Assembly: GCA_902790175.1 (NCBI GenBank)
Contig: CADAQZ010000013.1
Location: forward strand, 1 to 64,000
Direction of reading: 5' to 3'
DNA from: an uncultured Eubacteriales bacterium
Lineage (GTDB): Bacteria; Bacillota; Clostridia; Christensenellales; Aristaeellaceae
Length of the DNA stretch: 64,000 bases
The position numbers and the translations under genes were made by a program. The notes beneath the pieces are model-generated. The model was not told the DNA's origin, ran no database searches, and saw only the letters and a program-made list of their open reading frames with translations. Shown here one piece after another: positions 12,171-60,445 of the stretch. The first letter of the stretch is position 1. Every line of letters starts with the position of its first letter.

Positions 12171-13630
12171 TTGAGTTGGCCAATCGTCGCATTGATTGCG
12201 CTGATTGCGTTGGCCATTGGCCTGGTTGCCGGCTATCTGTACCGCAAGAACGGCATGGAGAAGAAGATCGGCCAGACGGAGGAATTCGTCGCCAATATGC
12301 TGGAGGATGCCACCCACAAGGCTGAGGAGAAGAAGAAGGAAGCCGTACTGGAGGCCAAGGAAGAAATCATCCGCTTGAAGTCGGAGCTTGATAAAGAAGT
12401 TCGTGACCGCCGCAGCGAAGTTTCGCGGCTTGAGCGCAGGGTGAACCAGCGCGAGGAAGCATTCGATAAGAAACTGGATAACCTGGAGGCCCGCGAGGAG
12501 GCGCTGAACGAGAAGTATCGCGAAGCCGAGCGCCTGGAAGCGGAAGCCAACGAAATGCACGACCGACAGAAGCAGGAGCTGGAGCGCGTCGCCGGCATGA
12601 CCGCCGACGAGGCCAAGGAGATCCTGATCGAACGGATACAGAAGGACGCCTACCACGACGCCGCCGTGATGGTGCGCGAGGTGGAGGCCAAGGCGAAGGA
12701 GGAGGCCGACAAGCGCGCCCGCGACATCGTGTCCCTCGCCATCCAGAAGTGCGCCGCCGACCACGTGGCCGAGACCACGGTGTCCGTGGTGGCGCTGCCC
12801 AACGACGACATGAAGGGCCGCATCATCGGCCGCGAGCGTTTGACCCGGTGCGCCGCGAGGTGGCCCGCATCGCGCTGGAGAAGCTGATCATGGACGGCCG
12901 CATCCATCCCGGCCGCATCGAAGAGATGGTGGAGAAGGCCAAGCGCGAGGTGGACAACCAGATCCGCGAGGCCGGCGAGCAGGCCATCTTCGAGACGAAC
13001 CTGCACGGCATCCATCCGGAGCTGGTGAAGCTGCTGGGCCGCATGCGCTACCGCACCTCCTACGGCCAGAACGTGCTGAGGCACTCCATCGAGGTCAGCC
13101 ACCTGGCGGGCGTCATGGCCGCCGAGCTGGGCGCGGACGTGACCCTGGCCAAGCGCGCGGGCCTGCTGCATGACATCGGCAAGGCCATCGACCACGAGGT
13201 CGAGGGCACGCACGTCACCATCGGCGCGGACCTTGCCAAGAAGTTCCGCGAGAACGACTTGGTCGTGAACGCCATCGCCGCGCACCACGGCGACGTGGAG
13301 CCCAAGAGTGTCGAGGCCGTGCTGGTGCAGGCCGCTGACGCCATCTCCGCCGCTCGTCCCGGCGCGCGCCGCGAGAGCCTGGAGAACTACATCAAGCGCC
13401 TGGAGAAGCTGGAGAGCATCGCCTACTCCTTCGACGGCGTGGAGACCTGCTACGCCATCCAGTCGGGCCGCGAGGTGCGCATCATCGTCAAGCCCGAGGA
13501 CGTCAACGACGCCGGTACGCTCATCCTCGCCCGCGAGATCGTCAAGCGGATCGAGAAGGAGATGGAGTATCCCGGCCAGATCAAGGTCAACGTCATCCGC
13601 GAGACCCGCGCGGTGGAATTCGCCAAGTAG
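12171..13630 (+). pseudogene. rny: Ribonuclease Y, broken by an ~82-bp deletion and frameshift in the KH domain
   Basis: RNase Y is the membrane-bound endoribonuclease that starts mRNA decay in Firmicutes. The N-terminal part is normal: one membrane helix (residues 4-24), a long coiled coil (30-165) and the start of the KH domain, ending in [14 protein letters not shown] at 12836. The rest is also normal but in another frame from 12839: [16 protein letters not shown], the HD motif ([19 protein letters not shown]) and the usual end ([12 protein letters not shown]). Between GRE and FDP the family has about 28 residues, including the GRNIR loop; here only 2 nt remain. As written, the protein would stop at 12887 without a nuclease domain. 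This is either a pseudogene or an assembly error; everything else about the gene looks healthy. Confidence 0.9.
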
Positions 13631-13670
13631 CAGCCTGAGGCTGCGCGCAATTGCTGCCGCGCACATGAAC

Positions 13671-13709
13671 CCGGCCCTTGCCCCCATAGATTCAAGGGGC
13701 AAGGGCCGG
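13671..13709. repeat. Loop-conserved hairpin, copy 1
   Basis: Perfect 14-bp stem (CCGGCCCTTGCCCC / GGGGCAAGGGCCGG) around the 11-nt loop CATAGATTCAA. The flanks GCTGCCGCGCACAT and GTTTGTA are shared with copy 2. It could end the rny transcript, although the T tract is poor. Confidence 0.8.
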
Positions 13710-13750
13710 TGTTTGTATGGGATCGAACAACCGCTGCTGCGCACATAGAC

Positions 13751-13789
13751 CCGGTCCCCTGTGCCACTGATTCAAGCACAGGGGGCCGG
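13751..13789. repeat. Loop-conserved hairpin, copy 2
   Basis: 14-bp stem (CCGGTCCCCTGTGC / GCACAGGGGGCCGG, one G-U type pair) around the 11-nt loop CACTGATTCAA. The stem differs from copy 1 at many positions on both sides while pairing is kept. Confidence 0.8.
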
Positions 13790-13809
13790 CGTTTGTAGGG
13801 AAATCGTTA

Positions 13810-14079
13810 TTACTGGTATATCTCGCTCCGGTGGCCGACTTCGAGCATCAGGATCACGAGGCGGTCGTCGCGGATCTCCGCGATCAGGCGGTAGTTGCCC
13901 ACGCGATAGCGCCACAGCCCGCTGAGGTTGCCGGACAGGGCCTTGCCGTGGGCGCGGGGATCGGAGCAGTTCTCCAGGTTCTTGCGAAGCCATTTGACGA
14001 TCATGGCCCGGATGCTGGGATCGAGCTTGCGCAAATCCTTCTTCGCGCCCTTGGTCAATTCGACGTGATAGGAGATCAT
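13810..14079 (-). CDS. RelE/ParE-superfamily toxin
   Basis: 89 residues. The RelE pattern is clear: ISYHVELTKGAKKDLRKLD at the start, then a helical pair, and the C-terminal strands LSGLWRYRVGNYRLIAEIRDDRLVILMLEVGHRSEIY with the conserved Arg residues and a terminal Tyr. RelE toxins cleave mRNA on the ribosome; ParE toxins of the same fold poison gyrase, and the sequence alone does not exclude that. The start overlaps the stop of the antitoxin gene by 4 bp, the usual arrangement, with the antitoxin first. Confidence 0.9.
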   Translation of the reverse strand: MISYHVELTKGAKKDLRKLDPSIRAMIVKWLRKNLENCSDPRAHGKALSGNLSGLWRYRVGNYRLIAEIRDDRLVILMLEVGHRSEIYQ

Positions 14080-14297
14080 TGCAGGCCAAACTCCTTCTCG
14101 ATTTCATCCAGGCTGTACGTGACCGGATCGGCCAGGTATTCGGCGTAGGCCTTCTCCGCGGCGCGGATGTCGAGCTCGTCCTCGATCTTCTCCAGCGCGG
14201 CGCGGCGCATGAAATCGCTGACGGTGATGCCGTGCAGCCGGGCGTAGTCCTTGATCAGGCGGGTCTCCTCGTCGCCCATGCGAACGGTCATGGTCAT
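14076..14297 (-). CDS. RelB-like antitoxin (ribbon-helix-helix type)
   Basis: 73 residues from ATG at 14297. The N-terminus (MTMTVRMGDEETRLIKDYAR, HGITVSDFMRRAALEKIEDE) is a ribbon-helix-helix DNA-binding motif. The C-terminal acidic part (SLDEIEKEFGLQ) is the likely toxin-wrapping tail. The longer frame would start inside the palindrome upstream and is rejected. Overlap with relE and the palindrome directly upstream fit autoregulation of a type II toxin-antitoxin operon. It is a single gene pair between rny and a diguanylate cyclase gene, with no other mobile signs around. Confidence 0.88.
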   Translation of the reverse strand: MTMTVRMGDEETRLIKDYARLHGITVSDFMRRAALEKIEDELDIRAAEKAYAEYLADPVTYSLDEIEKEFGLQ

Positions 14298-14303
14298 GAT
14301 ATC

Positions 14304-14340
14304 GCCCCCTTCTGTAATACATTGTAATACAGAAGGGGGC
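14304..14340 (-). promoter_or_regulatory. Palindromic operator of the toxin-antitoxin operon
   Basis: Perfect 13-bp inverted repeat (GCCCCCTTCTGTA / TACAGAAGGGGGC) whose centre carries the direct repeat GTAATAC-ATT-GTAATAC. It lies 6 bp before the antitoxin start, where ribbon-helix-helix repressors normally bind. The G-rich arm overlaps the likely ribosome binding site. Confidence 0.65.
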
Positions 14341-14382
14341 GCGCTGTCAAGAGTCAAATGATTCCAGAACCTCATTTGGCTG

Positions 14383-27796: not shown

Positions 27797-28028
27797 GTGT
27801 GGAGTGAGGAGTTAGGAGTTAGGAGTTAGGAGTTGATGGCCGCTGCCGCGCGATAACCAAAAGCCCTCCCCTTTAGGGGAGGGTGGATTGCCGCGAAGCG
27901 GCAAGACGGATGAGGTCGTGCCCCATTCCTCGTAGGGGTGGCGATGCGGCATTGTGTCGCCCGCCCCGCACCCAAAAGCCCTCCCCTTTAGGGGAGGGTG
28001 CCGAACGAAGTGAGGCGGGAGAGGTCGT
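27797..28028. repeat. Repeat cluster after trmL
   Basis: No gene. It holds GAGTTAG tandem units (27796-27830), a CCCTCCCC-type element (27859-27918, ending GACGGATGAGGTCG), a diverged GTAGGGGTGGCG palindrome (27930-27965) and a second CCCTCCCC element (27974-28028, ending GAGAGGTCG). The run GTTGATGGCCGCTGCCGCGCG before the first element also precedes the copy at 57019. Confidence 0.75.
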
Positions 28029-56935: not shown

Positions 56936-57190
56936 GAGAGTGAAGAGTGGAGAGTGGAGAGTTGAGAGTGAGGAGTTAGGAGTGAGGAGTTAGGAGTTGA
57001 TGGCGGCTGCCGCGCGCCAAAAGCCTCCCCTGTGTAAGGGGAGGTGGCCCGTAGGGCCGGAGGGGTTGTAGGGGCGGCGTTGCGGCGGAAGGTCCGCCCC
57101 CGCGCCCGCCCAAAGCCTTCCCCTTTAGGGGGCCGAAGGCCTAGCGTCAGCGTCAGGTGGCGCGTAGCGCCGGATGAGGTCGTCTCCCTT
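56936..57190. repeat. Repeat cluster between feoB and its small partner
   Basis: A 317-bp space without other genes. It contains GAGAGTGGAG/GAGGAGTTAG tandem units (56936-57000), a CCTCCCC-type hairpin (57019-57068), a broken GTAGGGGCGGCG palindrome and a CCTTCCCC/GATGAGGTCG element (57112-57182). Confidence 0.75.
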
Positions 57191-58648: not shown

Positions 58649-60445
58649 ATGCTGAAATACCTGAAAAAGTACCGCGTCCAGTGCGTGTGCGCGCCGCTGT
58701 TCAAGATGTTTGAGGCGCTGCTGGACCTGTTTGTGCCGCTGGTGGTGGCCTCGATCATCGACAAGGGCATCGCCGCGGGAAGCGCGGGCCCCGTGTGGCG
58801 CATGAGCGGCCTGCTGGTGGCGCTGGGGCTGGCGGGGCTGGCGGCGGCGGTCACGGCGCAATACTTCGCGGCGAAGGCGGCCACCGGCTTGTTTGAAAAG
58901 CTGACGTCGCTGGCGTTTTCGGACGTGGACCGGCTGGGCACGTCCGCGATGATCACGCGCATGACCAGCGACGTGAACCAGGCCCAGACCGGCGTGAACA
59001 TGGCGCTGCGGCTGCTATTGCGCTCGCCGTTCGTGGTGCTGGGGGCGATGATCATGGCTTTTACGATCGACGTGCGCTGCGCGCTGATCTTCGCGCTGGT
59101 GATCGCGGCGCTGTCGGCGGTGGTGGCCGCCATCATGGCGGCGAACATTCCGATGATGCAGGGCGTGCAGCGGCAGCTGGAGGCCGTGCTGGGCGCGACG
59201 CGCGAGAGCCTCGCCGGGGCGCGGGTGATCCGCGCGTTCCGCCGCGAGGATGCGGAGTACCAGGCCTTCCGCGCGAAGAACCGCGAGCTGGCCGCCCGCC
59301 AGCTGCGGGCCGGGCGCGTGTCGGCGCTCCTCAATCCCGTGACCTACGTGCTGATCAACCTGGCGGTGATCCTGCTGGTGCGCCAGGGCGCGATCCGCGT
59401 CGATTCCGGCGCGCTGAGCACCGGCCAGGTGGTGGCGCTGTACAACTACATGAGCCAGATTCTGGTGGAGCTTTTGAAGTTCGCCGCGCTGATCATCACG
59501 ATCAACAAGGGCTGGGCCAGCTGGAAGCGCGTGGAGGACGTGCTGGCGCTGACGCCCTCGATGGCCGTGCCCGGCGAGATGGGCGGCGCGCCGTCCGAGA
59601 GCGCCCCGGCGGTGGCGTTCGAGCACGTGACGCTGACCTATCCCGGCGCGGGCAGCCCCGCGCTGGAGGACATCGACTTCGCCGTGTCGCGCGGGCAGAC
59701 CGTGGGCATCATCGGCGGCACCGGCTCCGGCAAGAGCTCGCTGGCGCGGCTGATCCCGCGCTTTTACGACGTGACCTCCGGCGCGGTGCGCGTGAACGGC
59801 GTGGACGTGCGCGACTGGTCGAAGGACGCGCTGCGCGCGAAGATCGGCGCAGTGCCCCAGAAGGCGTCGCTGTTCAAGGGCACGATCCGCGACAACCTGC
59901 GCTGGGGCGATCCCGACGCCACAGACGAAGATTTGATCGAGGCCGCGGCCATCGCGCAGGCCTCGGACGTGCTGGCGGCGAAGGGCGGGCTGGACGGCGA
60001 GATCGCCCAGAACGGCGGCAACCTGTCCGGCGGCCAGCGGCAGCGCCTGACCATCGCGCGGGCGCTGGCGCGGCGGCCCGAGATCCTGATCCTGGACGAC
60101 AGCGCCTCCGCGCTGGACATGGCCACCGACGCGCGGCTGCGCGGGGCCATTGCGGGGCTGTCGTACCGGCCCACCGTGTTCATCATCTCCCAGCGGGCGG
60201 CCTCGATCATGCGCGCGGACCTGATCCTGGTGCTGGACGACGGCAGGATCGTCGGCAAGGGCACGCACGCCGAATTGCTCGAAACCTGTCCGATCTATAA
60301 GGAAATCTACGACTCTCAATTCGGCGGGGAGGCCCCGCTGCCGGATGCTGCCGCGACGGGAAGCCATCCGGTTCGCGCCATAGATTCAAGCGCGAACCGT
60401 CTGTGTGGCGATCCTGAAAAGGATAATGGGGAGGTGAGCGCGTGA
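58649..60445 (+). CDS. ABC exporter half-transporter, subunit 1
   Basis: 598 residues. Six membrane helices (about 1-290) are followed by an ATPase: Walker A GGTGSGKSS (about 360), signature NLSGGQRQRLTIARAL (about 460), Walker B ILILDDSASALD. The acid after Walker B is Asp followed by Ser (DDSAS) instead of the catalytic Glu, which marks a degenerate site as in heterodimeric exporters. Near residue 80 the segment AAKAATGLFEKL looks shorter than in relatives, which have about eight more residues with an Arg-Leu pair there. The C-terminal tail includes an inserted loop-conserved hairpin (60369-60399) encoding HPVRAIDSSANR. The substrate is unknown; multidrug or peptide export is typical. Confidence 0.88.
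   Translation: MLKYLKKYRVQCVCAPLFKMFEALLDLFVPLVVASIIDKGIAAGSAGPVWRMSGLLVALGLAGLAAAVTAQYFAAKAATGLFEKLTSLAFSDVDRLGTSAMITRMTSDVNQAQTGVNMALRLLLRSPFVVLGAMIMAFTIDVRCALIFALVIAALSAVVAAIMAANIPMMQGVQRQLEAVLGATRESLAGARVIRAFRREDAEYQAFRAKNRELAARQLRAGRVSALLNPVTYVLINLAVILLVRQGAIRVDSGALSTGQVVALYNYMSQILVELLKFAALIITINKGWASWKRVEDVLALTPSMAVPGEMGGAPSESAPAVAFEHVTLTYPGAGSPALEDIDFAVSRGQTVGIIGGTGSGKSSLARLIPRFYDVTSGAVRVNGVDVRDWSKDALRAKIGAVPQKASLFKGTIRDNLRWGDPDATDEDLIEAAAIAQASDVLAAKGGLDGEIAQNGGNLSGGQRQRLTIARALARRPEILILDDSASALDMATDARLRGAIAGLSYRPTVFIISQRAASIMRADLILVLDDGRIVGKGTHAELLETCPIYKEIYDSQFGGEAPLPDAAATGSHPVRAIDSSANRLCGDPEKDNGEVSA
60369..60399. repeat. Loop-conserved hairpin, copy 3, inside a coding region
   Basis: 10-bp stem CGGTTCGCGC / GCGCGAACCG around the 11-nt loop CATAGATTCAA, identical to the loop of copy 1 at 13685-13695. 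GCTGCCGCG lies just upstream, as in copy 1. Confidence 0.78.

Follow-up and report, generated by a model that had tools for sequence, protein, structure and literature searches.

Stop-adjacent hairpins with a near-constant loop and variable stems in an uncultured bacterial lineage

Three hairpins in the 64-kb window (the whole stretch of 64,000 nucleotides analysed here) belong to a large family of elements, in which the loop is nearly constant and the stems are variable. The elements share one anatomy, are placed behind genes, exclude terminator-like hairpins at two genes, are patchy in distribution and gain or lose modules composed of one small hairpin plus one box. They may well be short, modular, REP-like mobile cassettes that are adjacent to stop codons and carry a constant loop on a free stem, with the hairpin acting as a terminator and the loop being read in trans; both termination and mobility are predicted from sequence. 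If this is right, housekeeping genes of this uncultured lineage would now have their transcription ended by a family of mobile palindromes.

The repeat search located the three hairpins where the initial annotation had placed them; copies 1 and 2 are in tandem, and copy 3 lies at 60369-60399. The arms of copy 1 (13671-13684 and 13696-13709) are 14 bp in length and 100% paired, those of copy 2 (13751-13764 and 13776-13789) are 14 bp and 93% paired, with one G-T, and those of copy 3 (60369-60378 and 60390-60399) are 10 bp and 100% paired. In all three, 11 nt separate the arms. The loop is CATAGATTCAA in copy 1 (13685-13695) and copy 3 (60379-60389), and CACTGATTCAA in copy 2 (13765-13775); the word on the 5' side of the hairpin is GCTGCCGCG at copies 1 and 3 and GCTGCTGCG at copy 2, both as had been noted. 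On the plus strand, each hairpin (13671-13709, 13751-13789 and 60369-60399) is supported by folding, by the repeat search and by the covariance model described below, and the RNA fold z-scores are -4.3, -4.5 and -2.9, respectively. Within the window alone, the excess of the loop word is mild: there are 5 matches with at most one mismatch versus 1.7 expected, and 4 of 100 shuffles reach 5. No known Rfam RNA family matched positions 13500-13900 at gathering score; over the whole window, Rfam identified the SRP RNA and two tRNAs, nothing else.

The hairpin is a portion of a larger modular element, the unit being longer than the initial annotation had it. Copies 1 and 2 are placed between the 3' end of one gene, which we take from its sequence to be rny (RNase Y), and a convergent small gene pair. 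The 3' part of rny (12848-13630, plus strand; stop codon at 13628-13630) was defined by its open reading frame and by the matches of relatives, which are full-length and of 94-99% identity in 21 other genomes of the genus. One small 6-bp hairpin, GCAGCC[TGA]GGCTGC, was found by folding at 13630-13644 of the plus strand; its first base is the last base of the TAG stop. It is followed on the same strand by the box GCTGCCGC (13653-13660), which is nearly invariant in the 50-copy alignment, by hairpin copy 1 and by the short T-containing tail TGTTTGTATG (13710-13719), recognized from the tail profile of 145 copies. Copy 2 is preceded by the box variant GCTGCTGC (13733-13740, plus strand), as read from the sequence. 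The rny frame (12171-13630) is split into two overlapping frames in this assembly and is one single open frame of ∼520 codons in many relatives; the split may be an assembly error or a real lesion. The two-gene operon that faces the hairpins on the minus strand (13810-14375) presumably resembles RelE/ParE-type toxin-antitoxin pairs.

Copy 3 is not intergenic, which corrects the initial annotation: the last part of an ABC-transporter gene (58649-60445, plus strand; Pfam ABC_membrane and ABC_tran) contains it in frame. Its small hairpin, GCGGGG[AGG]CCCCGC, is at 60324-60338 and its box GCTGCCGC at 60347-60354, both on the plus strand. The best 22 ABC-transporter loci gave 20 readable 3' ends, which were compared by eye. 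Own genome (G000) and G011 have the element in frame, and G002 has the small hairpin and box, with the loop hairpin absent. Thirteen of the 20 ends, including G018, have no insert and code for a shorter C-terminus; G014 and G026 have other extra codons, and for G016 and G023 possibly another gene was caught. For the small hairpin of copy 3, five of the six bases of its 5' arm exist in the insert-free G018, and the 3' arm is absent there. The insert is bracketed by direct repeats, which are GGGGAGG in own genome (60326-60332 on the left and 60428-60434 on the right, plus strand) and AGCGGGGAGG in G002. These repeats are suggestive for this one gene. As a rule, however, target-site duplication, the criterion for MITEs and transposons, was not supported, since flanking repeats at 112 sites did not exceed those of re-paired controls. 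Entry into coding sequences is also known for small repeats such as the Rickettsia palindromic elements. Like the Rickettsia elements, copy 3 alters the protein C-terminus in frame; different from them, most other copies here are located behind genes.

The initial annotation had proposed a covariance-model search of the genome and its relatives. The model, built from 50 copies aligned with MAFFT, gave 403 matches in 26 of the 28 genomes of the genus, with 0 to 45 matches per genome and 16 in own genome (E ≤ 0.001); scoring was limited to 150 first-look candidates in each genome, and the counts are possibly low. A lack of further paired copies, or stems that are one sequence copied, had been named as arguing against the proposal, and neither was found. 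For inspection, 113 placed copies were used together with 145 distinct box-bearing copies gathered by pattern; G007 contributes one place of its 40 matches. In own genome (2.43 Mb), GATTCAAG occurs at 26 places, compared to 2 for the reversed control, and the arms are paired at 9 of them. Even at the 17 of these 26 places (loci L034-L059) that have unpaired arms, the word exceeds the reversed control.

Beyond the genus, 14 of 150 genomes drawn from the family hold a match, as scored under stricter filters with 28 candidates each (E ≤ 1e-4). Six of them are of this genus and three are of one second genus (25, 24 and 8 matches). The other five, spread over four further genera, hold between 1 and 5 matches apiece, most of them weak. 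The printed copy from the further genera (L409) has the box, the loop and the paired stem. In two of the three second-genus genomes (loci L406, L417 and L407), the box, loop and small hairpin are the same as those of the genus; in the third (L408), the loop hairpin is present and the box is degenerate. A loose loop pattern gave at least 120 matches in named genomes; among the matches listed, 12 have at least 9 of 12 positions paired. Nine of these 12 were judged true by their loop, and among the matches listed all nine are 'uncultured Clostridiales' RUG assemblies, which we take to be rumen genomes. These named carriers are metagenome assemblies, and the remaining genomes are in many contigs. 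The same loose pattern gave at least 120 matches in viral contigs, and among the matches listed two have at least 9 of 12 positions paired, both with other loops. Among the matches listed, carriage by phage was not supported; the tight pattern hit one viral contig (L431), in which the flanks are not complementary. Among the literature matches listed, neither the loop family nor stop-codon-matched hairpins are described.

In its full form, the element follows the gene in a fixed order: stop codon, small hairpin, ∼8 nt, box GCTGCCGC, ∼23 nt, loop CAYWGATTCNA on a ∼14-bp stem, and GTTT tail. The arms of the small hairpin are mostly 5-7 bp and its loop is mostly 3 nt; the unit of small hairpin plus box is sometimes tandemly repeated. 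In the tally of 145 copies, in which 5 of the 11 loop positions were fixed by the collecting pattern, the loop is CACTGATTCAA in 49, CACTGATTCCA in 24, CATAGATTCAA in 23 and CATTGATTCAA in 17, and 19 rarer forms make up the rest. The GTTT tail is at a fixed distance and has three T-rich positions, of 61-70% T each in the 145 copies. The mean pairwise identity in the 50-copy alignment is 0.92 for the box, 0.90 for the loop, 0.49 for the 10-bp stem and 0.30 for the flank; the conservation of the box and loop is partly built in, as copies were gathered by loop and box patterns. A loop-blind hairpin list lessens this bias, not fully, since its loci were fetched for having elements. The TTCNA of the loop may resemble a tRNA-like T-loop. 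Pairing between loop and box was considered by eye and dropped.

The elements have a preferred placement. The 113 placed copies comprise 120 matches minus the 8 weakest, plus the window region 13645-13735 added by hand; genes were called with one home-made caller seeded with window genes, and 12 copies were too near an end to classify. Among the 101 classifiable copies, 54 are between convergent genes, for which orientation is uninformative, 37 are behind a tandem gene of the same direction, 8 are in the opposite direction, 1 is between divergent genes and 1 is inside a gene. At rny, 23 of 25 loci were readable by eye: 12 have the element, 10 have one unrelated GC hairpin (7 with at least four T in a row) and 1 is a hybrid. 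In the hybrid, of G001, the small hairpin is present, the box is altered and the terminator looks ordinary. Among 25 groL ends, also read by eye, 6 have this loop, 1 has a sister loop and 18 have other hairpins. Since the element and other hairpins occur at the same place behind rny, the element hairpin most likely serves as the transcription terminator of the gene. Like intrinsic terminators, it is a stable, GC-rich hairpin of ∼14 bp close behind the stop, and it occupies the terminator slot of rny and groL orthologues; in genomes without the element, other terminator-like hairpins occupy that place. Different from intrinsic terminators, the element has a near-constant loop, a box, a stop-codon hairpin, a short GTTT tail and fewer G-U pairs. 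If the element has indeed replaced other terminator-like hairpins, genes with either kind would form natural pairs in which its influence on expression could be measured.

A REP-like mobile hairpin is suggested by the patchy copy number, by stems that are specific to a genome and by modules in tandem. On the rny tree, in which 12 of 20 inner branches are unresolved, the presence of the element needs about five gains or losses, at least three of them forced by well-supported branches. The element label is clustered on this tree, as only 23 of 500 shuffles are as low; this clustering and the lack of general direct repeats count against the mobile cassette. At several orthologous genes, the stems are conserved between species, which points to vertical inheritance and not to fresh transposition. 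The tail, with about three T, is weak for an intrinsic terminator, and this also counts against the cassette explanation.

The small hairpin is associated with the stop codon. At 95 of 112 element-bearing ends, the stop is surrounded by a Watson-Crick hairpin whose stem is 5 bp or longer and whose loop is 3-4 nt, compared to 7 of 250 control ends of the same loci; an earlier, narrower count gave 59 of 65 and 19 of 308, respectively, and in all these counts the sites are not independent, being partly related by descent. At 27 sites the 5' arm takes in all of the stop codon, and at 10 the stop lies in the loop; at 17 sites no such hairpin was found. Of the 112 sites, 45 have a hairpin that extends back across the entire stop; when 3' flanks were exchanged between genes in 20 rounds, the mean was 12.5 and the maximum 18. 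At groL, TGAT lies across the stop in 24 of 25 gene ends (TAAG in G014), and the NNN-ATCA continuation occurs only at the 7 element-bearing ends. In these seven, the 3' arm follows the Tyr codon: TAC goes with ATCAG in four and TAT with ATCAA in three. Under the mobile-cassette reading, the small hairpin would on placement be composed of the gene's own last bases and stop plus one new complementary arm. A more far-reaching and tentative explanation, rather improbable in our judgement, is that a mobile system placed behind a gene writes the complement of the gene's last bases and stop as the second arm of the small hairpin, and brings its own constant-loop terminator. If true, the stems would be free and self-templated, and only the loop and box would be read by the enzyme. 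The same pattern would arise if hairpins at the stop codon were favoured by selection. The stop-matched small hairpins would be a checkable trace of the insertion mode, or of such selection.

The pairing of the main stem is not a product of chance. When selected for loop and box alone, 117 of 120 genus copies have at least 10 of 12 flanking positions paired, and in the 14 pairs of the 50-copy alignment 95.6% of cells are paired, versus 59.8% in shuffles and at most 46.6% with the partner slid; plain chance was ruled out by these data. The stems do differ in sequence, as first described, with 13 of 14 stem positions changing on both sides. For the family, this variation also rejects the copying of one sequence, though stem families recur within genomes. 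The initial annotation took stem change with kept pairing for selection on structure. More copies, varied stems and kept pairing bear this out in part, yet a large share of the stem variation seems to come from the exchange of whole palindromes and not from stepwise compensation. At ftsK, the close relatives G000 and G011 have the inner stem swapped on both arms, and also differ by one small-hairpin-plus-box module between two boxes. At the PNPase gene and in the L256/L287 pair, the main stem is conserved and the small hairpins differ more. Because of the ftsK swap and these two comparisons, the covariation across the family is not simply stepwise compensation; an RNA accounts for it no better than a hairpin in DNA or the conversion of cassettes would.

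These elements could instead be host regulatory RNA of 3' untranslated regions, possible though clearly less probable than the mobile cassette. The loop and box in the mRNA would be bound by a protein or small RNA, which would determine where the transcripts of a regulon end, how stable they are or how their translation terminates. The much higher conservation of box and loop than of stems, the position behind stops and the small hairpin, whose arm or loop holds the stop codon, all agree with this, and carriers include PNPase, Cpn60, a protein with the RNA polymerase Rpb1 domain and a gene presumed from its sequence to be rny. In E. coli, REPs less than 16 nt from the stop are reported to lower translation (PMC12306157). 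Pfam scanning of 19 upstream-gene proteins identified, in own genome, RNA polymerase Rpb1 domain, glutamate-family dehydrogenase, FtsK, Cpn60, phospholipase D, Ldh_2, ROK, arginyl-tRNA synthetase and ABC transporter; in G018, it identified ABC, Ldh_2, HisI/HisE, FtsK, PNPase, solute-binding protein, glutamate-family dehydrogenase, ZIP and PrmA, and one protein had no match. No common pathway is evident among the 19 proteins. The carriers are diverse housekeeping genes that differ between genomes, and copy number varies from none to 45 within one genus, both of which argue against a host regulatory RNA.

Base-pair composition also bears on regulatory RNA. In uninterrupted stems of 135 element copies, G-U accounts for 20 of 1592 pairs (1.3%), compared to 45 of 683 pairs (6.6%) in 60 ordinary terminators of the same loci; the 60 are the stricter control set, and a looser one gave 229 G-U in 1576 paired cells. 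Unfiltered for pairing, 12 positions have 19 G-U and 17 A-C cells, about equal, where selection on RNA would be expected to give a clear surplus of G-U; this argument against RNA is weak, as in the pairing-filtered set the nearest 10 positions still have more G-U (16) than A-C (6). The counts weakly favour a DNA-level hairpin or cassette swapping over RNA-level selection. Since G-U is rare and whole stems are swapped, compensation at the RNA level is not proven.

It is unlikely that the hairpins are ordinary intrinsic terminators, with the loop and box common by descent and by gene conversion among paralogous 3' ends and the loop unread. Their terminator position at rny and groL would be accounted for, as would the genome-specific stem families and the swap of whole stems; at rny of G001, the loop and box have apparently decayed, and a hairpin with TTTT remains. 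However, neutral descent would decay loop, box, stems and flanks together, whereas the loop and box are ∼90% identical, the stems ∼50% and the flanks ∼30%. Nor is the stop-matched small hairpin, so frequent at element-bearing ends (95/112 versus 7/250), expected of ordinary terminators.

Under the mobile-cassette reading, the hairpin would now be the transcription terminator of the gene, and a trans factor, most likely an HUH-like single-strand nuclease or transposase, would recognize the loop, the stem needing only to pair. Stems would thereby be free to drift or to be swapped as whole palindromes, with the loop and box being kept. The free stem and fixed loop would make loop-only recognition directly testable. 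A protein or RNA may read the loop, as the initial annotation also suggested. A trans factor that reads the loop was not found in our search. Rolling-circle and CRESS-virus origin hairpins have a constant nonanucleotide loop on a free stem and are read by HUH endonucleases. They are alike in form to the element, with a fixed loop and variable, well-paired stem, and the loop of the element differs from theirs.

Single-strand transposases are present in the same genomes. Among 30 fetched Y1 loci, 15 have inverted hairpins on both sides, with constant GGGACGGTT and gene-specific stems; these are L383 of own genome (G000:C44:412-3750), L380, L382, L385, L387-L389, L392, L393, L395, L397 and L399-L402. 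The GGGACGGTT family at Y1 genes is a REP/RAYT-like set with a constant loop, and the constant-loop design is therefore used by single-strand transposases in these genomes. It is highly improbable that our elements are REPs spread by the resident Y1 (RAYT-type) transposases: despite this shared architecture of constant loop and variable stem, the Y1 genes are bracketed by the GGGACGGTT family instead, Y1_Tnp counts are uncorrelated with the number of elements (Spearman -0.09, p 0.66), Y1_Tnp hits are absent from six genomes that hold 8 or more matches, and no GTAG or CGTC tag is found at the hairpin foot. The pattern CAYNGATTCNA has two matches only in the 30 Y1 loci (L383 and L392), neither flanked by complementary arms. 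Y2_Tnp (IS91-type) gave 0 hits in the 28 genomes and also 0 in control genomes, which makes the zero uninformative.

According to three reports (PMC8266576, PMC3733652, PMC12306157), REP/BIME sequences associated with TnpAREP/RAYT are short palindromic extragenic repeats, some near stops, clustered and strain-variable, and their loop and perfect stem can be recognized features. The present element is likewise a short, multi-copy, extragenic palindrome (403 matches; 1 of 101 copies inside a called gene). Different from REPs, it has a constant loop of 11 nt and a box of 8 nt that precedes this loop by ∼23 nt, an orientation preference behind genes and a terminator place, and its matches do not follow Y1 transposases. 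In the 50-copy alignment, neither REP tetranucleotide is conserved at the stem foot, and the tail is GTTT. As described in PMC8266576, certain loop positions of the Sm and Mb REPtrons tolerate no change and stem mismatches cut activity, and swapping the stem sequence of the Mb REPtron has a moderate effect; in contrast, the loop sequence is without importance in the E. coli system. With the GGGACGGTT hairpins at Y1 genes and these REPtron results, an HUH-like enzyme that reads the loop would be the likeliest candidate reader.

Some related arrangements were also observed. At locus L241 (contig C35 of own genome, behind groL), the 5' part of the element is present in three repeats. Their junction is a short stretch of identity shared by the stop region and the loop, as slippage during replication might produce. 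At 27842-27883 and 57006-57043 of the window, the box GCTGCCGC is followed by a different repeated hairpin, of CCTCCCC/GGGGAGG type, behind genes; these hairpins have GGAGTTAGGAGTT-like short tandem repeats upstream. A sister hairpin family has the 9-nt loop GNNGATCAT on different stems; 13 were seen (L579, L262, L263, L269, L276, L407 and others), some of them behind the same GCTGCCGC box.
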